31,689 nt of DNA from a virus: IMG/VR virus record IMGVR_UViG_3300029262_000219, positions 1-31,689 of that record; one strand, written 5' to 3'. Shown one piece after another: positions 182-31,452 of this stretch. Numbering within the stretch: the stretch's first letter is position 1; every line of letters begins with the position of its first letter. The notes under the pieces were generated by a model, which had not been told where the DNA came from, searched no databases, and saw only the letters and a program-made list of their open reading frames with translations. The translations under genes were made by a program, and so were the position numbers.

Positions 182-406
182 ATGGATATAAAAATAGAAA
201 TAGAATTAAAAGATAGTACTTGGGGATTTAGTGATTTGTTGGATGGTAGAGAACTAAACAACCAAACAAAAAAAGAAATTATTGAATTACTTAAAGAAGA
301 TATTGGAGAGGTATTTGACCAACAAATTGAAGTCAAGCAATTAAATTTATCTGGTGTTGTGGATAGTTTAATGGATATCAAAAATATAAAGAGAGGATAT
401 AGATGA
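182..406 (+). CDS. Hypothetical protein, 74 residues
   Basis: This small acidic-to-neutral protein starts MDIKIEIELKDSTWGFSDLL and has a predicted amphipathic helix around residues 30-45 (TKKEIIELLKEDIGEVFDQQ). No family is recognised. The start is supported by the A-rich leader shared with the 10976 gene. The reverse-strand ORF over the same bases is hydrophobic and has no leader, so I treat it as a shadow. The gene ends just before the structured non-coding region, which may be its 3' UTR or a separate transcript. Confidence 0.6.
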   Translation: MDIKIEIELKDSTWGFSDLLDGRELNNQTKKEIIELLKEDIGEVFDQQIEVKQLNLSGVVDSLMDIKNIKRGYR

Positions 407-485
407 GATAACCGTCGGATAAGATAATACATCAGATAATAATACTTATTAGTCTAATCACAATTCCCAACAATGTCCAAGCTTA

Positions 486-670
486 TGAGCATCTGTACTA
501 CTGAAAGGAGTTGTGAAAGTTCTTACTTATCCACCTAATCAACATTAGGCGATAAGCAGTAGAGATGTGAATCTCAATTAATGCAAAGTGGTTGAAGTAA
601 ACAGTAATAATACCGACTGTGTGAATCTGGATGTCTGGAGTACAAAACCGGGTACCGCTTTGCTTTTTTT
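486..670 (+). ncRNA. Branched structured RNA with GNRA-capped stem and terminator, no known family assigned
   Basis: The whole interval 407-707 has no convincing ORF but folds well on the plus strand. CTACTG (498-503) pairs with CAGTAG (557-562) and encloses two contiguous hairpins. One is AAGGAGTT-GTGA-AAGTTCTT (505-524, one G-G mismatch, a GNRA-type loop). The other is CTTATC/CCTAAT-CAAC-ATTAGG/GATAAG (526-556). Outside this three-way junction, CATCT (490-494) can pair with AGATG (563-567). Alternatively GAGAT-GTGA-ATCTC (562-575) forms a second GTGA-capped hairpin that excludes that helix. A further domain (583-663) is closed by a 9-bp helix followed by seven T. The 5' end is uncertain, and bases 407-485 hold only weak hairpins. 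I checked for tRNA, tmRNA and RNase P hallmarks and saw none. Confidence 0.6.
583..670 (+). terminator. Intrinsic terminator closing the structured RNA
   Basis: GCAAAGTGG at 583-591 pairs with CCGCTTTGC at 655-663 over 9 bp with one G-T wobble, followed directly by TTTTTTT at 664-670. The 63-base interior holds a small bulged hairpin (CCGAC 613-617 with GTCTGG 633-638), so this is a long-looped terminator. It would end the upstream RNA and insulate the secreted-protein genes that start at 708. Confidence 0.6.
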
Positions 671-707
671 AATCAATTAAAACTAAAACATTATAAAAAC
701 ATTTATT

Positions 708-2928: not shown

Positions 2929-3392
2929 TGAATATAATTAATAGATTATTTGGAAAAAACAAAAAACCAAGAAAAATATCAGATATTGTTGATGAACTTA
3001 GGCTTATAGCTGAAAGTAACAGTAAACTTACAATAGTATTTATGTCTACAGACACTGAATATAAATCAACTATGATTCAGGGAACTGAAAGCTCTGTAAA
3101 ATCATTGATGTCAGATGCATGCGCTAATGATGAAACATTTAATTCTATAATACAAGAAACTGCTAAGAGCTCAAAAAATACTTCTAATGAACTTTTCGAT
3201 GAAGAAGAGATTGCTTTAGATTTACTTAAAAATAACAAGAATTTTAAATCTATTGATTTGCCTGATGGAGGCAGAGGGATGGCAATAGATGTATCTAATA
3301 TTGATGATATTTCAGATGAAGATGTAGATGATATTATAAATGACATGTTCAGAGATCTAGATGGGAAAAATACAGACAGCCCAGAAGAATAA
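2928..3392 (+). CDS. Hypothetical acidic protein, 154 residues
   Basis: The N-terminus is basic (MNIINRLFGKNKKPRK). The remainder is acidic, ending in a run of Asp/Glu between about residues 125 and 154 (DISDEDVDDIINDMFRDLDG). The mid-region has predicted strands (KLTIVFMSTDTEYKSTM). No family recognised. It starts on the TAATG junction with the preceding gene and overlaps the downstream helicase by 32 bases, so it is probably a stoichiometric companion of its neighbours. An acidic-tailed partner for a helicase or DNA-binding protein is possible but not shown. Confidence 0.6.
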   Translation: MNIINRLFGKNKKPRKISDIVDELRLIAESNSKLTIVFMSTDTEYKSTMIQGTESSVKSLMSDACANDETFNSIIQETAKSSKNTSNELFDEEEIALDLLKNNKNFKSIDLPDGGRGMAIDVSNIDDISDEDVDDIINDMFRDLDGKNTDSPEE

Positions 3393-4602
3393 AATACAAT
3401 CTAAAGCAGTTGCACTAAGTATTATACATAGATTTCTTTGCCTTGAATGGTCCACAGGAACTGGTAAAACTCTTGGTGCTCTGAAAATTGTAGAAAATAT
3501 CTTAAAAGATAATCCTAAAGCTACTGGCTATTTAGTCTGCAAAGAAAGCACTCACAAAAAGAATTGGAAATTAGATATCAGTAAACATAATATGGATGTA
3601 GTTGGTAATTCAATGAAAACTGTATTGTACGCGTCTATGAAAAAGCAAACTGAAAAAGCTAATTTCCTTATTCTTGATGAGTGTCATGCCTTGACTCCGT
3701 TAAGAATAAAACAGTTAAGGTCAGTATTGCAGCGAGGAACTCGTATTATATTTCTTTCTGCTACCATTCCAAAAGAAAAAAAAGCGTTAATGAATGAACT
3801 TTGTAAAAAAGTTTATTACTACACAATTTCTTTGAATAAAGCATTTGAGATGAAGTTGTTGCCAATTCCATCTCTTGTTGTTCACAAGATATACCTAAAG
3901 AAAGAGATTGAAGGCAAGATCTGGGACTTTTCATACAGGAAGCCTCACAAAGGTAAGTTTACAAAATATTGTTCTCATAAGGACCTATTTAAGACTATAA
4001 AGATGTATCCAAAAGGATTTGGAATAGTTTGTCAGGGAAGTGAGCAGGAATATTATGATGGTATTTCTAAGCAAATGGAATATTACAGATCTCTATCTGA
4101 AGATATGGAAGTTCCGTATTTAGTTAGAGAAGGTTGCAGGAACAAATACTTAAACCTAGCTTCACGCAGGAAGAAATTCATTGCTGAAGTTAAAACAGAG
4201 AGTGTAAAAGATCTGGTTAAGGAATTTAGAATGAATAATCTAAGATTTATTTGTTTTACTGGATCTATTAACCAAGTGAAGGAGCTTGGTTCAGATAGTG
4301 CAGTTCATTCTAAAAATGAAAAAGGAGTTAATCAAAATTTGATTGATTGCTTTAATAATTTAGAATGCTCTGAATTATTTGCAGTTAAGATGTTAAGAGA
4401 AGGTATTAACCTTACTCAAATTGAAAGAGGCATAATAACACAATTAGATAGTGGTATTGGTTCATTCTTTCAAATGCTAGGCAGGTGTCTACGTCATGAA
4501 TTTCCAGAAATGCATTTACTTGTACTTCAAGAAACTCAAGATGTAGTATACTTTAAAAAATCAATAAATAATTTTAATAAAGACTACATAACATGGAGTT
4601 AA
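3361..4602 (+). CDS. Superfamily 2 DEAD/DEAH-type helicase
   Basis: The 413-residue ATP-dependent helicase or translocase has its motifs in the right order. These are a Q-motif-like start (TAQKNKIQSKAV, residues 6-17), Walker A GTGKT (33-37), the DECH box (106-109), SAT motif III (133-135) and motif VI QMLGRCLR (371-378) with the arginine finger. The length suits a minimal two-RecA-domain SF2 enzyme without large accessory domains. crAss-like phages usually encode such a helicase in the replication block. The exact role (fork restart, recombination or origin melting) is not visible. The gene overlaps both neighbours (32 and 10 bases) within the operon. It lies closer to the UvsW/SNF2-like phage helicases than to RNA helicases, but the subfamily is uncertain. 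Confidence 0.85.
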   Translation: MGKIQTAQKNKIQSKAVALSIIHRFLCLEWSTGTGKTLGALKIVENILKDNPKATGYLVCKESTHKKNWKLDISKHNMDVVGNSMKTVLYASMKKQTEKANFLILDECHALTPLRIKQLRSVLQRGTRIIFLSATIPKEKKALMNELCKKVYYYTISLNKAFEMKLLPIPSLVVHKIYLKKEIEGKIWDFSYRKPHKGKFTKYCSHKDLFKTIKMYPKGFGIVCQGSEQEYYDGISKQMEYYRSLSEDMEVPYLVREGCRNKYLNLASRRKKFIAEVKTESVKDLVKEFRMNNLRFICFTGSINQVKELGSDSAVHSKNEKGVNQNLIDCFNNLECSELFAVKMLREGINLTQIERGIITQLDSGIGSFFQMLGRCLRHEFPEMHLLVLQETQDVVYFKKSINNFNKDYITWS

Positions 4603-7097: not shown

Positions 7098-8180
7098 TTG
7101 AGTGAAAAAATAAAACAATTTAAACCAGAGTTAATACCTAACTCTAAAACTGGTCAAGAATTTGAATTGACCAAAAACGTTATTAACCCAACTGATTACT
7201 ACGTGTCAATAAAACATGATGGCGGAAGAGTAGAGATACAAGGTACTGGACCGGGATTAAGTAGAGCTTTAAAAGTTATACCTAATGTTAAACTTCAAGA
7301 AATGGTTAAAGAAATTCAAGAGCACTCAGTTCTTGAGCCAGGCGAAATACTAGAGTGTGAATTTTATGCACCTAATATGACGTTCTCTGAAATTATGCAT
7401 TTCTTTAAAACTGAAGATGTAACATCTGCTCATACTAGAAATAAGTATGAAAAGTTGTGGTCTAAAACACTTGGAGATCCTGAGAAAGGTTGGAATTATC
7501 CAGGCAGATCAGTAGAATGGCTAACCACTTGGCATCCTGAATTAAAATTTTATGCTTTTAATTTGCTTGATACTGATGTAATGAAATGGAATAAACAGAC
7601 TAGGGACAGAAATTTAATGGTATATATTAAGGATTACTACTATTTGTATAAAGGTGAAGGTAATCTTAAGTATATTAAGCAAAATGTTTTTGATAGTCAT
7701 AAGGCTATTCAAGATTTTTATGACTTAGCTGTTAACAATAATGAAGAGGGGATTGTTATAGTTCGTAAAGATTCTTTATATAAGTTTGGTAGACATACTA
7801 TGAAATCAGGTAACATTTTCAAAATGAAAGAAGATAAGCTGGAATTTGATGCTGTAATACTTGATGTTGAAGAAGCTACTGAAGCTAGAGAAGGCGCTGA
7901 GAAGACTATAAATGAATTAGGACGTAGTAAGACATCTCAGTTAAAAGATGACAGGATACCTTCTGGTTTAGCTAAAGGATTTAAAGTTCGCATGGAAGAT
8001 GGTCGTGAATTTACTGTATCACTTAATCAATACAACAATACAGAAAAGACACAACTATTAATAGATAAGTCTGACTTTATTGGACAATGGATTAGGTTTA
8101 CAGCAATGCATCCAACTAAACCTGGAGGAATGCCAAGACAAGCTAGGTACACTAAAGGAAATATTAGAGACGCTAAGTAA
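7098..8180 (+). CDS. ATP-dependent DNA ligase
   Basis: The 360-residue nucleotidyltransferase joins nicks using an enzyme-AMP intermediate. Motif I is KHDGGR with the catalytic Lys at residue 39. EEGIV (216-220) fits motif IV, KMK (242-244) fits motif V, and an OB-fold-like C-terminal part (GFKVRMEDGREFTVSL, then IGQWIRFTAM) completes the two-domain core. The length matches small phage ligases. The start is a TTG at 7098, because the first in-frame ATG lies far downstream and would remove the catalytic lysine. The TAA stop shares a base with the next ATG. It probably seals Okazaki fragments and recombination products. Confidence 0.88.
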   Translation: MSEKIKQFKPELIPNSKTGQEFELTKNVINPTDYYVSIKHDGGRVEIQGTGPGLSRALKVIPNVKLQEMVKEIQEHSVLEPGEILECEFYAPNMTFSEIMHFFKTEDVTSAHTRNKYEKLWSKTLGDPEKGWNYPGRSVEWLTTWHPELKFYAFNLLDTDVMKWNKQTRDRNLMVYIKDYYYLYKGEGNLKYIKQNVFDSHKAIQDFYDLAVNNNEEGIVIVRKDSLYKFGRHTMKSGNIFKMKEDKLEFDAVILDVEEATEAREGAEKTINELGRSKTSQLKDDRIPSGLAKGFKVRMEDGREFTVSLNQYNNTEKTQLLIDKSDFIGQWIRFTAMHPTKPGGMPRQARYTKGNIRDAK

Positions 8181-13868: not shown

Positions 13869-14915
13869 ATGATAAAAAAAACAATCAACACAAATTTAAT
13901 GAAAAAACAAGAGACATTTAAAGTAATGGCTCTAGGCGAAGCAATGAGAACACCAATATTATTAATTGGACCTCCTGGAGTAGCTAAAACTGCTGCTGTA
14001 ATTGATTTTGCAACAGCATCATTAGGAGCATTAGCAGATAATGATTTGTTTCTATTGGAAACAGATGAAGGCACTAGATCTAACGCTGTAAAAGGTAATA
14101 TAGATTTAGCTGCTTTGACTACAACTAATGTTTACAAGGTAGACTCTCCTATTACGAGAGCAAAAGTAGTTGTTATTAATGAGATAGATAAAGCATCTCC
14201 TTCATTAAGAAACAGTTTACTTGGTATTATGAATGAGAGAATCTTGTTTAACGGTACTGAAAAGATAGATTGTGTTTGGAATAACTTCATTGCAACCTGT
14301 AATGAAATTCCAGATGATGAAAAAGATTCTCCATTTTGGGATAGATTTTTAATCACTCACAAAGTAAATAGATTATCTCAATCAGATATGTTAAATTACT
14401 ATTCTAAAGGCGGTAAGTCTTTTAGACAAAATCATAACATAAATTTACCTGAAGAAGCTGATATAGTTTCAATCACACTTAACCCTGATAAGTTAAAAAA
14501 AGTTCTTGATGTATGTCACAAAGATTTATCTGACAGAGCTTTATCATTTTTACCTTTATTGGTTAAGAATGTAATGTGTGTTTGGGGAATGAATGAAGAC
14601 AGAGGTTTAGTTAAAACTACTGAGCTTTTAATTGACAAGTCAACAGCTAATAAATTAGCTAAAACACTTGTTCCTAAAGAAGTTCGCGATCTTTATGATA
14701 TTATTGATGGTATTGGCCAATGTGTTTCTGATTCAGAATACAATAAGCAATATGATAGATTAGAGATTGCTTATGCAAACGCTAGCAAATCTGGTCATAT
14801 AAGTAAAAATGATGCTGCTGATCTTCAAGAGAAAATTGCACAAGAAGAATCTAAATTAGAGTTCTTAAAAACTGCTGACGATGACGCAGAAGTATTAAAT
14901 ACAATTAATAATTAA
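13869..14915 (+). CDS. MoxR/CobS-like AAA+ ATPase
   Basis: The 348-residue AAA+ protein has Walker A GPPGVAKT (residues 34-41), Walker B VVVINEIDKA (INE at 103-105) and a sensor region NNFIATCNEIPDDEKDSPFW followed by DRFLITHKVNRL. ALSFLPLLVKNV marks the lid domain. These features place it with MoxR/RavA/CobS ATPases. Such ATPases act with a VWA protein to insert metal or remodel client proteins. Here the VWA partner follows on a TAATG junction, so the pair is translationally coupled. A second ATG at 13899 is preceded by ACACAAATTTA and is an alternative start. The client is unknown. Confidence 0.82.
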   Translation: MIKKTINTNLMKKQETFKVMALGEAMRTPILLIGPPGVAKTAAVIDFATASLGALADNDLFLLETDEGTRSNAVKGNIDLAALTTTNVYKVDSPITRAKVVVINEIDKASPSLRNSLLGIMNERILFNGTEKIDCVWNNFIATCNEIPDDEKDSPFWDRFLITHKVNRLSQSDMLNYYSKGGKSFRQNHNINLPEEADIVSITLNPDKLKKVLDVCHKDLSDRALSFLPLLVKNVMCVWGMNEDRGLVKTTELLIDKSTANKLAKTLVPKEVRDLYDIIDGIGQCVSDSEYNKQYDRLEIAYANASKSGHISKNDAADLQEKIAQEESKLEFLKTADDDAEVLNTINN

Positions 14916-24828: not shown

Positions 24829-27800
24829 TTATTGCTTACCTGAAGGGCAATCTTTTTTAGTTATATTTTCTTCTTTGATAATATTTTTCAACATGTCTGG
24901 GGTAATTTCAAATGATGGACCATCATACTCTTCTTCCTCAATATCAGAAATTTCATCCTCTGCATTTTCAATGTCTGAAAGAGTATCTGGTAATTCCTGA
25001 GAATCATCAATAAACATCTCATTAGCTTTTAATTCTTTTCTAATTTTATTAATAGCCATAAGCTCAGCACCATTAAGATTATTATCTTCTAATATAGAGC
25101 TTTCTATTTTCTTTTCATAAGAATATTCAAAAACTTTATTTTTACCTGCTTTAAGCCCAAGTCTAAATGTTCTTTCGTATGCTGGTAAATAATCATTATC
25201 AGCATCTTCTGTGAAGCTTTCTGATTTTTTAAAGAAACCAATTGTACCGTCATCAAGTTTAACTGTAACAAATTCAGGTGTATCTGGATAAGCAACACCC
25301 ATTTTAAACTTTTGGTATTTATCAAGAAGTTTTTTAGTTCCAATAAATCCATAATTCATATCAGATCCTTCTACTATAGGCTCTATGTCTGAGTCATTTA
25401 ATCTAGGTACAACTTCAGTATTATTAGACTCATGTCTAGCGAATTGATCAAAGAAAACACTCCCAGGAATATCATCTATTCTTTGAAAAAATGAATTAGT
25501 TTCCGCGTTTATACCTTCATCTCTCAATATTTCATGAGGAATGTGAGTAAAAAATTGGTTTAAATTCTGTTGAAATCCTGATTGAGTATAAGAATATCTT
25601 ACCAAATTAACGGCTAAATTTTTAGTTTTTTCATTCTTATAAAGATCTATCCAAGCTCTGTATATATCGTTTTGATATTCAGCAGGCTTGTCTTTACCAT
25701 TAATTCCAATGAAATCAAATCCATTGACCATATTAATTTCTAATTCCTGAATAAGGAAATTAGGCTTATAGATTTTTTTATTATCCGCTAATGCTTTAAG
25801 TCTTTGACTTTCTCTTAACTCAGAAACTTGTTTTGGTATTTTTTCAAATAGCTTTTCAAAGTTACTTCTATTCTTTTTTAGTAACTCAGTTCTTGACATC
25901 AAGTAAGTATAAACACCTTTATCTACTGCTGCTCCAAGTTTTTTTGAAACAATATACTCTTCTTTAGTCATCATGTTAGACGCGTGATCCATAACATCTT
26001 GCATTGCACTAGTTGCTGATAACATTATATTGCTACTAGTCAATACTGAATTTGTGAAATCTAAAGCTTTAGCTTTGTATGTTCCTAACGCTGTACCATC
26101 GTATTTAGACATGTAGTTATTTACGAACCCAACATGCTCAACTTTGTTAATTTTATTAGAAGCTATATGCATTTCTATTGGAGATCCACCAGCACCTCTT
26201 GTGTCAATCTTAGCAGAAAGCAAAGCGTCAGTCCATTGAGCTGATTTCTTTTCGTGAAATTCAAATGCATTTAATACCACGGAGTCTACAAAAGTTTTTC
26301 TAACTCCTTTTACACTTTGTTCCATGTCGCTTTTTGAAATTGTTCTTAGTTTTTTTTGAGATCCTTCAATATTTTTTATATCGTATTTATTTCTAAGATA
26401 TTCATAAGGATTTACATACTTAACTTTACCATCAACAACTATGGTTAATGGAGTTCCAGTAATACTGTCTACTCTTTTCTTTAAAGCAACAAGTTCTTTT
26501 AATATTGGTTGACCAATATATCTATTTATATCTTCCATAGAGCCACCTGCTCTAATAAGCATGAATGTAACATTAGCTGTAACATCATTGTGGTTTCCTC
26601 TTGTAATGTATGGATCTTTTGCTATATCAACATACGCGTTCAAAAATGCTGACAATGTTGATACTACACTATGCTTGTTGCCGTTAGGCACATCCATTTT
26701 TGTAATGCTCTTATTCTTTCCTACTTTTATTGCTTCTCCAAATCCTAAGTCGCTATTAACTGATATTTCTAAAGATTGATTAGCTACGTGATCAACTAAT
26801 TGATTAGCAGTTAATGCAACACCCATTTTACCAGACATGTAATTCATCTTAGTTTTTAACTGCGTAATAGGTGAGAATAAATCTAAATTCTTATCTTTTG
26901 GCTTAGGGTGCAAGTTTTCGATATCTTCTTTAAGAAATAATCCATCAATAGAAGTCATCATGTTATCATAAGTATGATCACTCTGAAGTACATCTGAATA
27001 AAGCTTTAATACGTTATTTTGAGCAATTAGTTTATCCGCTTTAGCTTTTTGCTTACTTGGAAGAAACTTCTTATTCTCATCACTAATCATTTCAAATTCC
27101 TTAGACTTTTTATTATACATAAGGTTTGGTGCCATTATGTACATCTTATCAATATCAAAATCTGATCCTGTCTTAGCTGGAATACCATCGTATCCTATGA
27201 TACTATCACCCATTGTAGAAGGTAATACTGCAACTATTTCAAGTGTATCATTTGATGACATACCTTGATTAGGTATTCTGTATCCAACAAGCTCTCTTAC
27301 TTTAGGATCCTTGAATGCTTTCTTCCAATCTGCTGGAGTCATAGTATTTACATCTACACCTGCATCTCTACCTGCATCTCTAAGTAATTTAACAGCTAAA
27401 GTATGAGGTATCATTACTTGACCTGGAAGAGTCTGACCATCTGGCCCTTGCGTTGGAGGTTGTAATCCTTTACCATCATAGTTGTCTGAGATTATTTTAA
27501 TACTAGAATCTTCTAGATCAGCCTTAAGCTTCTTTATAGCAACATTATCTTCCTTGCTTAAAGGATCTACACCTTGAGTATATAGCTCTGCTTTTTCTTT
27601 ACCATACTTACCTACTAAGTAATCATACTCAGCGTCAAGTAGGTCAGATTCACTGACACCAACTTCCTCTAATCCAAATGGTGATACTTGAATAAACGAG
27701 CCACCTTCAGTAGCAATTTTAGTCATGGCTCTGTTAAATACAGACATTAAGATGCTGTCAATTCTACCTTTAATCTGTGGTATTGCATCAATAGGAGTTC

Positions 27801-30800
27801 CTTTTTCAAGTGCTGTAATAATATTCTCATTAGCACCTCTTGATCTAAATTCTGCAATTAATACATCATAAATTGGATCCTTGTCAGTAATCTTGTTATC
27901 GACAATTCCTAATTTAGCAGAAACCTCATCAGCACCTATCTCAATTAATTTAGAAATTGCATCATGGATTCGTTGTAGTAACTCTGAACCATCTATCTTG
28001 TCTACTTCTCCCGATACTTTGTACTTTAAATCTAGTTTTAGATCTTCAAGAATATTTTTTTGTATTTGAGATCCTAAATTAGTTTCATGCATTGTCTTGA
28101 TAGGAAGATCTTGTTGAAGCTTCCATCCCCTATTAGACAAAGTATTTGTATTTAGTTTAAAATTAGGATCCATATCAGTTGTACCCTCTTTATTAATCCT
28201 AGTTGGTGCAATAGCTCCTACTTTGACTCCATCAATAGTAATTACCTCATGAACTTCATCAGAAGCTTTTTTTATGTAATTTCCATCTCTGTCGTGAGTC
28301 ATTCTTTTTAACAACTTTGCCATTGGAGTATTTTTTACCATGCTTGGAATAAGCACAGCTTGAGAGTACTTTAAGTATGTTGGAATACCTTTGTTTATTT
28401 CAAAGTAAACACCTTTAAGTGGTTGGGCTGCAAGTTTCATTTCAGAATCTTTTAACTGATTTCCATTTTGCATCTTCTTAAATACCTCTGCATGAGCGTC
28501 ACTCCATTGACCTAATCTCTGTTTAATGAATTTCCATCTACGAGGAGTAATCCATGCTTGAGCATCAGTAGTGTTTACGTCACTAGTTCCTTTCTTTTTC
28601 TTGCCGTTCTTATCGTATCTAGCTCCGTAAGCATCAGCAATAGACTTATCAGTCAAAGAGTCTCTTATTTGTTGAAGATACTTAGAAGCAACCTCAACGC
28701 CCTCAACAACTGCAACATTGAATTTCATGTCATCAGCAGAATCTAAAGCTAATTGTAATCCATCAGTATATGTTGCTGGTATTCTTTTAATTAAATCCGC
28801 GTTATTTTTAAAGTAAGCTGGATCTCCAGAAAATAGCTTTGTATATTCAATAGAAGAAACAAGTCCATTAACTAAATAATCACCCGCAATAGCTGCTAAT
28901 CCACCTTCATCTTTGTAATGAGCAATTAATTTGCTATTCATTTGAGATGTTTTAGAAAGCTCTTTAACTTCTTTATAAGTATCATTTAATCTTTCTTTTA
29001 ATGATGCTTCAACAGCTAATCTTACTTCATTCCTTTGACTATCACTGAATCCGTGCACACCATTGGAAGACAATGGCATATTAGTTTTAGGATCATATAG
29101 AATAGCTTTTAATGAATCTGAAGCTGTATCAAAACTAAATTCGGGAAAAAGTTGTGATTTTAATCCATTCTTTGCTCCAATATGATAGTGTTGAACTTTT
29201 TTATGTTCCGGAAGAGTTTCTATATCATTGGCAACATCTTTCATTCTGTTGTATTCAGATTCAAAATACTTTACAAAAATATCAACAGTTCTTTGCGGTA
29301 TTAATAATTTTCCTTTCGAATCTTTATCACCAGATATTAAAGAATCTACAAATTCAAATCCTTTGAACTCTACTCTTCTTGATTTATCTGCAGCAATAAT
29401 TGTAGGAAAGTACGAAGTCTGACCTATTTTTTTACCTAGTAATTTTGTTATATTATCATTTAATTGATCAGCTAATGAAATACTTACATTATCAACACCA
29501 TCATCTTTACCTTTAGAAGTAAATGAACTGGCCAATCCATGCTCAAATGCATCTAGTCTTTCTTGAGATCTTTTTAATCTCTCTTTTTTGTTGTGCTCAC
29601 TTTGTTCTTGCCCAAATACATCGCGAGTTTTGTAGCCAAGCAAATACTTTATCCACCTGGAACTACCATTTATTGGATCAGAAGCTAATGCCTCAAGCCC
29701 ACTTAAATCTTTTTTCCATTCAGAAATTTTATTCGATATGAATGTAGGGTTTGCATACGCAAAGTAAGTCTTACCTCCAGACGCAAGTATGCTAGATTCT
29801 GCAATATCTAACTCCCTCATTGCAGATGCCTTAGCTAACATTTTAACCATAGACTGAGTTCTGAAAGGATTTAGAAACGCACCATCTTTAATGAAGGGTT
29901 TACCTGCACCTTTTTTGTCAACTGCAGTTATATCTCCATTGATCATGTGTCCGATACCAACAAATAAATCTTTAATTGTGTTAAATTCATTTTCAGTACC
30001 TCCACCTAGCATTATAAGAGCATTGATATCAGAATCCATTAATCCAAATACACCTAAGTTTCTTAACTGCTGGAATAATTTAGGAACAATCTCCTCATAA
30101 ACTTCATTCTCTAAGCTCCTATCTCCATTGGCTTGGCCAATACCTTCTCTGAATTTTGTGTATAATACTGAAACTGCAGTTCCTATGAAATTTATTTCTT
30201 TTAAATTTTCAATAGAAAGATTAGCTTGTCCCCCTCCTAACCATTTTCCTCTAAATCTGTATCCCCATCTGTCAAGTATCTGACTTTCTCTACTATTTGT
30301 TGCAGTAGCATTTATAACTGTATATGCTGAAGAATCTTGATTGAACTCAGTAACATAAAAATTTACGTTAGTTTTATTAAATGCTTGTACAAATTCATAT
30401 ACTTTAAATCTACCAACACCATTGTCATTGTTCATTGTATCTAACTTCTCCGCAAGATCATAAGCCCAAGGTTTAACAGTCTTTAATTTTTCAATAACCT
30501 CCCTCATTTGCTTATACGTAGAAACCACTCCTCCTTCAGTACCGCCGGTTGTAACTATATCTGACAATAAAGGTTGTAGTGTTTGCCAAACTTGATTGAA
30601 ATCTTCAAATACAGGTGTTTTTAAAAAACCTGATCTTTTTATTTTTAATACTTGATTTGAACTGTTTGGATCTGATGATTTTACTAATCTCTTAGAAACT
30701 AATTGAGATAAGAATATTTTAGTGTTTATTGTGGCAGATTCTTTTGCATTCACAGTAATAGATTCAATCATGTTTAATCCACCACCTTTCTCTTCTTCTT

Positions 30801-31452
30801 TTACTTCTCCCTTAACATTTCCCTCTGCATCAATAATTTTTTCTTGGTAGTTTTGGCCTAATGCAGCTAACTTAAAAACAAGTTCATCTTTGAACTCATG
30901 CTTGTATAACTCAACAAGTTCAATTCTTTTTGTACCAATTTTAGCTTTTTCTTTAGGTAAGGTTGATAACTGTTGCTTGTAACTTTCAATTGATCTTTCT
31001 ATGCTAGATAATAAAGCTCTCTTTGATTTGTCTTTAGCATCTCCATCATTGAATGCCTGAGGGCCTCCTTCTTTATCGAATCTGTATAAGAAATGTTTAG
31101 ATACATCTTTAATTTCTTGAGGCGAGAAAGCATCTCTAAGCGGCGTTAAAGAGTTGACAGGAATCTTAGTCCCATCAACATCTTTAAAGTACCACTTGTT
31201 AGAGTTTTTTTTGTTGTATAATTTTGGCTCACCTTTATCAGTGACTTCTCCAATTTTTGCTAATAAACCATTAGCATCTCTGATACCTTTATAGTTTTTT
31301 TTCCAATCACCGAAAACTTTTCCAAAATCATTACCCAAAACCTTACTATACAGTAAGTCCGCTTTGTGCTGATCATTGAAAATTTCTAGTAATTGAGCGT
31401 GTAGTACGGATTTTTCCCCAGCTACCTCGTTCATTACGTTGCAAACTTCCAT
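24829..31452 (-). CDS. Giant virion-type RNA polymerase of crAss-like phages
   Basis: The 2207-residue single-chain RNA polymerase has the diagnostic region GYRIPNQG (about 1391) followed by AKTGSDFDIDKMYIMAPN. Asp1431, Asp1433 and Asp1435 of DFDID hold the catalytic magnesium in a double-psi beta-barrel. This matches Cellulophaga phage phi14:2 gp66, which is of similar size, relates to YonO and to cellular polymerases, and is packaged in the virion to transcribe early genes. The N-terminus (MEVCNVMNEVAGEKSVLHAQ) resembles the starts of other large crAss-like virion proteins. The C-terminus is acidic (DEISDIEEEEYDG) and ends KKDCPSGKQ. The plus-strand ORFs inside it are shadows. No frameshift was seen. 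Confidence 0.92.
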   Translation of the reverse strand: MEVCNVMNEVAGEKSVLHAQLLEIFNDQHKADLLYSKVLGNDFGKVFGDWKKNYKGIRDANGLLAKIGEVTDKGEPKLYNKKNSNKWYFKDVDGTKIPVNSLTPLRDAFSPQEIKDVSKHFLYRFDKEGGPQAFNDGDAKDKSKRALLSSIERSIESYKQQLSTLPKEKAKIGTKRIELVELYKHEFKDELVFKLAALGQNYQEKIIDAEGNVKGEVKEEEKGGGLNMIESITVNAKESATINTKIFLSQLVSKRLVKSSDPNSSNQVLKIKRSGFLKTPVFEDFNQVWQTLQPLLSDIVTTGGTEGGVVSTYKQMREVIEKLKTVKPWAYDLAEKLDTMNNDNGVGRFKVYEFVQAFNKTNVNFYVTEFNQDSSAYTVINATATNSRESQILDRWGYRFRGKWLGGGQANLSIENLKEINFIGTAVSVLYTKFREGIGQANGDRSLENEVYEEIVPKLFQQLRNLGVFGLMDSDINALIMLGGGTENEFNTIKDLFVGIGHMINGDITAVDKKGAGKPFIKDGAFLNPFRTQSMVKMLAKASAMRELDIAESSILASGGKTYFAYANPTFISNKISEWKKDLSGLEALASDPINGSSRWIKYLLGYKTRDVFGQEQSEHNKKERLKRSQERLDAFEHGLASSFTSKGKDDGVDNVSISLADQLNDNITKLLGKKIGQTSYFPTIIAADKSRRVEFKGFEFVDSLISGDKDSKGKLLIPQRTVDIFVKYFESEYNRMKDVANDIETLPEHKKVQHYHIGAKNGLKSQLFPEFSFDTASDSLKAILYDPKTNMPLSSNGVHGFSDSQRNEVRLAVEASLKERLNDTYKEVKELSKTSQMNSKLIAHYKDEGGLAAIAGDYLVNGLVSSIEYTKLFSGDPAYFKNNADLIKRIPATYTDGLQLALDSADDMKFNVAVVEGVEVASKYLQQIRDSLTDKSIADAYGARYDKNGKKKKGTSDVNTTDAQAWITPRRWKFIKQRLGQWSDAHAEVFKKMQNGNQLKDSEMKLAAQPLKGVYFEINKGIPTYLKYSQAVLIPSMVKNTPMAKLLKRMTHDRDGNYIKKASDEVHEVITIDGVKVGAIAPTRINKEGTTDMDPNFKLNTNTLSNRGWKLQQDLPIKTMHETNLGSQIQKNILEDLKLDLKYKVSGEVDKIDGSELLQRIHDAISKLIEIGADEVSAKLGIVDNKITDKDPIYDVLIAEFRSRGANENIITALEKGTPIDAIPQIKGRIDSILMSVFNRAMTKIATEGGSFIQVSPFGLEEVGVSESDLLDAEYDYLVGKYGKEKAELYTQGVDPLSKEDNVAIKKLKADLEDSSIKIISDNYDGKGLQPPTQGPDGQTLPGQVMIPHTLAVKLLRDAGRDAGVDVNTMTPADWKKAFKDPKVRELVGYRIPNQGMSSNDTLEIVAVLPSTMGDSIIGYDGIPAKTGSDFDIDKMYIMAPNLMYNKKSKEFEMISDENKKFLPSKQKAKADKLIAQNNVLKLYSDVLQSDHTYDNMMTSIDGLFLKEDIENLHPKPKDKNLDLFSPITQLKTKMNYMSGKMGVALTANQLVDHVANQSLEISVNSDLGFGEAIKVGKNKSITKMDVPNGNKHSVVSTLSAFLNAYVDIAKDPYITRGNHNDVTANVTFMLIRAGGSMEDINRYIGQPILKELVALKKRVDSITGTPLTIVVDGKVKYVNPYEYLRNKYDIKNIEGSQKKLRTISKSDMEQSVKGVRKTFVDSVVLNAFEFHEKKSAQWTDALLSAKIDTRGAGGSPIEMHIASNKINKVEHVGFVNNYMSKYDGTALGTYKAKALDFTNSVLTSSNIMLSATSAMQDVMDHASNMMTKEEYIVSKKLGAAVDKGVYTYLMSRTELLKKNRSNFEKLFEKIPKQVSELRESQRLKALADNKKIYKPNFLIQELEINMVNGFDFIGINGKDKPAEYQNDIYRAWIDLYKNEKTKNLAVNLVRYSYTQSGFQQNLNQFFTHIPHEILRDEGINAETNSFFQRIDDIPGSVFFDQFARHESNNTEVVPRLNDSDIEPIVEGSDMNYGFIGTKKLLDKYQKFKMGVAYPDTPEFVTVKLDDGTIGFFKKSESFTEDADNDYLPAYERTFRLGLKAGKNKVFEYSYEKKIESSILEDNNLNGAELMAINKIRKELKANEMFIDDSQELPDTLSDIENAEDEISDIEEEEYDGPSFEITPDMLKNIIKEENITKKDCPSGKQ

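Follow-up and report, generated by a model that had tools for sequence, protein, structure and literature searches.

The window, that is the whole stretch of DNA analyzed here (31.7 kb, a fragment of a virus record), carries at 580-670 of its + strand an element, named W, that we regard with very little doubt as a conserved RNA family. Taken as a whole, our reading, to which we give about even chances, is that W is a new small structured phage RNA that acts in trans and most likely serves translation. Concerning its parts, action in trans as an RNA of its own seems probable, and a link with translation, suggested by the genomic neighborhood only, is advanced tentatively. An initial sequence-only reading had proposed an undescribed structured non-coding phage RNA in a gene-free gap of the window, and this is borne out, the RNA having covarying pairs and no Rfam family and lying in a crAss-like phage. 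The RNA does lie within the gap then flagged, but its conserved part is 580-670, which had been treated as a closing helix plus terminator, and the covarying pairs fall within 580-668 instead of 498-562, where covariation had been predicted.

Genomic context of the window

A 2207-aa ORF (24829-31452, - strand) matches the virion RNA polymerase of Cellulophaga phage phi14:2 (gp66; 6VR4; E 3e-207), and the phage is therefore crAss-like; this group counts dominant human gut phages among its members. Up to 20.6 kb, the + strand of the window carries small genes followed by replication genes; among the latter, the ORF at 13869-14915 has an AAA ATPase domain of the MoxR type (bpMoxR, E 3.6e-24). The flagged site is found in the largest gene-free gap of the window (407-707), which is devoid of any + strand ORF of at least 40 aa, in agreement with the gap of about 300 bases described before. 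As to the earlier mention of host-surface neighbors, both ORFs downstream of the gap start with signal-peptide-like sequences; however, a Pfam search of these two ORFs gave no match, and elsewhere the RNA occurs without these genes. At the curated gathering score, the Rfam search that had been proposed as a check found nothing in the window, and neither Rfam nor ARAGORN recognized a tRNA or tmRNA in it, as the sequence-only reading had also concluded. A lax Rfam scan of 380-720 returned chance-level eukaryotic models only. The features of the window considered below are as follows.

182..406, + strand: upstream ORF, 74 aa; relatives were searched for and none was found
486..578, + strand: three-way junction domain, with helices 489-494/563-568 and 498-503/557-562, hairpins 504-524 and 526-556, and an alternative hairpin 562-575
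580..670, + strand: W element, with P1, P2, a variable P3 and a conserved core, then T7; delimited by covariance model and alignment with L139, L142 and L144-L147
583..592, + strand: P1, 5' strand, GCAAAGTGGT; covarying helix (8 of its 10 pairs show two-sided changes)
597..598, + strand: short inner helix, 5' strand GT, pairing with AC 647-648; GC/GC in other members
601..620, + strand: P2 hairpin, ACAGT 601-605/ACTGT 616-620, with loop AATAATACCG; from RNAalifold and pair counts
625..643, + strand: P3, variable hairpin, assigned by position and variability in the alignment; 70% of cells paired
649..651, + strand: CGG, possible pseudoknot partner of the P2-loop CCG 613-615; bases invariant
654..663, + strand: P1, 3' strand, ACCGCTTTGC; same covarying helix as 583..592
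664..670, + strand: T7 run after P1, terminator-like in sequence; T5 at the same place in L145
708..1223, + strand: downstream ORF, 171 aa, secreted outer-membrane-like protein
3361-4602, in the window: helicase gene, query for the locus searches

Identification of the W family

Direct sequence searches with the whole 300-nt gap as query found no relatives. With the helicase gene as query, 24 IMG/VR loci were retrieved, the early regions of which contain many structured gene-free stretches, and a search of a genome collection with the same gene yielded L139, a phage-like contig with 75% helicase identity. The gap at 2644-3006 of L139 holds a homologue of window 580-668, and the two contigs share the order of a small ORF, the RNA, a secreted protein, a CxKDDCxQEA lipoprotein, an HTH gene and the helicase. 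The score of the local alignment between them was matched by 4 of 1000 dinucleotide shuffles. The L139 contig (CAJYBF010000002.1), from a crAss-like phage, is filed in a public MAG labeled 'uncultured Mollicutes bacterium', and it was probably mis-binned into this bacterial MAG.

A pattern describing the core shared by the window and L139, with P1 left out, retrieved six contigs from IMG/VR, five of which (L142 and L144-L147) match the covariance model of the two sequences with E values from 4.8e-10 to 3.5e-7. The sixth (L143) lies inside coding-like sequence, with an E value of 0.08, and was rejected as a member, providing a natural negative; L140 was also rejected as a chance pattern match inside coding sequence. 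The family comprises seven sequences, including the nearly identical L142 and L146. Searches by blastn for W in INPHARED phages and PLSDB plasmids returned none, with a low-complexity filter that may mask part of the A-rich core, and no Rfam 15 family overlaps W in L139 and L142-L147.

A separate observation concerns L046, in which a gap (7835-8108) is closed by a 13-bp helix (AAACTCTTTGACT/AGTCAAAGAGTTT). Beside this helix, a 22-nt stretch (7842-7863) matches window 592-612; the W model gives no match there, and on the basis of the short match it is possible that the stretch is a divergent relative of W.

Structure and covariation of W

Members of the family are about 85-90 nt long and share a closing P1, the core TGAAG..AAC..AATAAWACCGAYTGTGTGA, the motif AAA.CCGGRY and covariation, while the GTGA loops described from the sequence do not characterize the family. 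P1 differs in sequence in nearly every phage, yet 97% of its cells are paired across the seven sequences, and G-U pairs occur in it in several members. Between the window and L139, all 10 pairs of P1 are conserved, the changes being two-sided in 4 of them and one-sided in 2. In the alignment of the seven sequences fitted to P1, two-sided changes were found in 8 of 10 pairs (0 of 500 shuffles). An unconstrained MAFFT alignment of the same seven sequences allowed RNAalifold to recover P1, P2, the inner helix 597-598/647-648 and P3, with two-sided changes in 12 of 19 pairs; 0 of 500 shuffles reached any of the measures, and the covariation score was 0.486, whereas shuffles gave 0.178 and slid structures no more than 0.223. 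P2 contributes one two-sided change, being ACAGT/ACTGT in the window and ACAAT/ATTGT in the other six members. The inner helix also presents one two-sided change, a weak signal in a helix of 2 pairs only, and the alignment of P3 is poor (70% of cells paired). The 9-bp closing helix followed by T7 that had been described from the sequence is recognizable in 583-592/654-663 and 664-670, but the helix really consists of 10 pairs, one of them G-U.

The core of W is nearly invariant (consensus GGTTGAAGCCAACAATAATAAAACCGATTGTGTGA ... AAAGCCGGAYACC), an invariance that, as for P2, is partly by construction, since five members were found via the core-derived pattern. The P2 loop has ten bases and ends in ACCG. 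A CCG/CGG contact between this loop and the 3' part of the core is possible in all members, and it appears as an alternative pairing in the single-sequence folds of the window, L145 and L146. It may be that CCG 613-615 and CGG 649-651 form a compact pseudoknot, through bases whose invariance carries no covariation signal.

The junction domain upstream of W

The pairings that the sequence-only reading had described in the 5' part of the gap are present, namely CTACTG 498-503 with CAGTAG 557-562, the two hairpins enclosed by them (504-524 and 526-556) and the alternative GTGA hairpin GAGATGTGAATCTC (562-575). The folding z score is -3.0 for 486-578 (1 of 500 shuffles as stable), -2.8 for 486-670 (2 of 200) and -2.0 for 580-668 (21 of 500), and by raw energy the place of the 5' domain among the 1020 windows of the contig is about 6th; folding energy by itself is modest evidence for a structured RNA here. 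Judged by its predicted energy, the junction 489-568 is probably a real RNA structure. Searches with blastn, nhmmer and a covariance model gave no homologue of it, and its counterpart upstream of W in L139 (2805-2905) folds no better than chance (z 0.1). The junction domain may be specific to this phage. Its two competing pairings around 562-567 might form a switch, as the sequence-only reading had suggested.

In the window, W would probably be transcribed as the 3' part of one RNA that also carries the junction 489-568. A tenable though less expected arrangement is that the gap holds two independent RNAs, the junction being a separate small RNA unrelated to W. The good folding of the 5' domain is consistent with it, as is the fact that RNA modules in related phages occur separately and in varying order, but the searches gave no homologue of this domain, and no promoter-like sequence or terminator was found between this domain and W.

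Genomic setting and proposed function

In L142, L144, and L146, a Bacteroidetes-type promoter, TTTG-N20-TATCTT(T/A), ends 4-5 nt before W, and transcription would therefore start at or near P1; no promoter of this type was found before W in the window, L139 or L145. In addition, tRNA, tmRNA and/or GOLLD genes are located near W in four of the five IMG/VR contigs. A tRNA-Met lies 146 nt upstream of W in L142 and L146, L144 carries a tmRNA and a tRNA near W, and in L146 and L147 W shares its strand with GOLLD and dozens of tRNAs. The sole neighbor of this kind in L139 is one tRNA, 560 nt upstream, and none was found near W in the window or L145. An RNA-like unit whose ends are joined by a long helix (z -2.75) was also observed between tRNA-Met and W in L142 (13232-13345).

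The promoters of its own and the changing neighbors point to W acting in trans as a separate RNA. Since different phages have this core in common, W would not be an antisense RNA to a varying mRNA; its target would be conserved, and the accompanying tRNA, tmRNA and GOLLD suggest a role in translation. We propose that W would be made as a stable RNA together with the phage tRNAs, tmRNA and GOLLD, and that it would most likely contact a conserved protein, the ribosome or a ligand, serving translation during infection. A bolder version, in which W is a new structural RNA class whose core forms a pseudoknot and contacts the ribosome or a translation factor, and in which it is one of several distinct RNA classes that crAss-like phages shuffle as modules in an RNA-rich early region, is speculative and we consider it doubtful.

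Alternatively, W could act in cis, as a leader or riboswitch-like element that belongs to the 5' UTR of the next gene and controls it, with P1-T7 as the terminator of the off state. In the window and L139, the start codon of a secreted-protein gene follows W at a distance of 30-40 nt, T7 follows P1 in the window, and a ligand-binding aptamer would likewise show an almost invariant core. This is nevertheless unlikely, because the gene downstream of W is outer-membrane-like in the window and encodes an unrelated secreted protein in L139, L146 has no forward ORF of 60 aa within 2 kb after W, and a second promoter-like sequence immediately follows W in L142 and L146. As the downstream genes differ, W does not appear to be the leader of one particular gene; nor is it that of the outer-membrane-like gene, since L028 carries the latter at 95% DNA identity without the RNA upstream.

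The sequence-only reading had proposed a regulatory RNA acting on phage or host mRNA, and base pairing of an A-rich loop with such mRNAs would make W an antisense RNA. The P2 loop (AATAAAACCG) is conserved and single-stranded in the model; however, the conserved bases span the core on both sides of P2 and reach into AAAGCCGGAY, far exceeding a seed, and the neighbors differ, as the hosts probably do, so that shared mRNA targets are unlikely. We thus regard an antisense role as decidedly improbable. Control of host-surface mRNAs is unlikely for the W element, given neighbors that vary among phages and a core that is nearly invariant.

Regarding termination, helix 583-592/654-663 is followed by T7, but the loop that it encloses is branched and 61 nt long, as opposed to the short loop of an intrinsic terminator, and a terminator scan restricted to short loops found none. 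In this phage, P1 and T7 may serve as a terminator as well. There is very little chance, on the other hand, that W is a plain branched intrinsic terminator of the upstream transcript and nothing more: the 10-pair helix with T7 in the window and the T5 after P1 in L145 would fit, but the long conserved core would be superfluous for termination, and no T-run of this kind immediately follows P1 in L142, L146, and L147.

In phage N4, a small DNA hairpin promoter is bound by the virion RNA polymerase. An N4-like hairpin promoter for the injected virion RNA polymerase, a replication signal or another DNA-level element is the least credible explanation. The gap does sit in the early region, and in crAss-like phages early genes are transcribed by an injected RNA polymerase (reviewed in PMC10136315), but the pairing of P1 is maintained through G-U pairs, which argues that W acts as RNA rather than DNA, and an ordinary Bacteroidetes-type promoter reads directly into several members.

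Comparison with known RNAs

W belongs to no known RNA family, and its kind is that of the phage tRNA-island RNAs of unknown function. Structured RNAs in phage tRNA islands, such as GOLLD and ROOL, are a standing puzzle. GOLLD (RF02032) is, like W, a structured phage RNA of tRNA islands with unknown function, and in L146 and L147 it lies beside W, on the same strand and within about 1.5 kb, the RF02032 match never falling over W. Unlike W, it is 400-800 nt long (vs. about 90 nt) and has another architecture, and there is no sequence or model match between the two. The small stable RNAs C and D of phage T4, which come from its tRNA cluster and whose function is unknown, may also be comparable to W as small RNAs of a phage tRNA cluster. 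Phage tRNA and tmRNA genes share with W the same islands and similar promoters (L144), but W lacks a tRNA-like domain, a T arm and a tag frame, and it receives no ARAGORN or Rfam call.

ROOL is a structured phage RNA often found near tRNA islands (PMC12286853), but it is much larger than W, and no ROOL match of Rfam was obtained in the window or the W loci. Binding of GOLLD to ribosomes has been reported from pull-downs (cited in PMC12286853). A YrlA or Y RNA was also considered, prompted by the TROVE protein reported in crAss001 (PMC8375218), and it was rejected, TROVE (Ro60, PF05731) being absent from 23 records including the window and phi14:2, many of which are fragments. W represents a separate and far smaller family in GOLLD-type islands, and a crAss-like phage carries it too. 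Its length of about 90 nt would make it simple to express, delete, pull down and solve, and it may offer a quicker handle on the role of the RNAs of these islands in infection.

Other conserved RNAs in the early regions of crAss-like phages

An uncatalogued conserved RNA, here family B, was found upstream of the helicase gene cluster in L004 (795-904), L017 (3982-4091), and L139 (3981-4092). Its covarying elements are the helix AATAYCCNNG/CNNGGRTATT and a hairpin around AGTCGATA; it also has a T-arm-like GTGGTTCGATTCCAC, and five pairs show two-sided changes in the three sequences. Although syntenic in L004 and L017, family B is not the RNA of the window, as its model gives no match in the gap; L135 and L137 were rejected as members, being chance pattern matches inside coding sequence. 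A further conserved RNA module (ATCAGGAAGC...TTCCTGNAACCATTYAGTTGGGKATAAACAG) is shared by L004 (676-798) and L139 (4390-4505); family B is adjacent to it in L004 and the order is reversed in L139, which argues that RNA modules shuffle.

A long RNA-like region was also observed in phi14:2 (L134, 2900-3370), L017 (2300-2710), and L126 (650-900), with very conserved blocks, namely GATGTGTTGT..CCTTGAGAAAG, ACAACACAAATGAGTTCTCAGCAAGTAGT and, in two of the three, GTGACCCTACTCTTATTAGT; Rfam gave no match to it in phi14:2 or L017. No published descriptions of these early-region RNAs were found in a search that most subscription journals fell outside. The published annotation of phi14:2 is blank where other conserved RNAs of crAss-like early regions occur.

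Genes for tmRNA are present in the early regions of phi14:2 (NC_021806, 4031-4500), L126 (977-1296), and L131 (435-756). That of phi14:2 is not among the RefSeq features in the stretch viewed, from which RefSeq removed predicted ORFs. Finally, L005 (1-260) and L043 (1203-1460) share a conserved structured gene-free region of 255 nt, with 86% identity and a few two-sided pair changes, which in L005 adjoins a tRNA-Leu.
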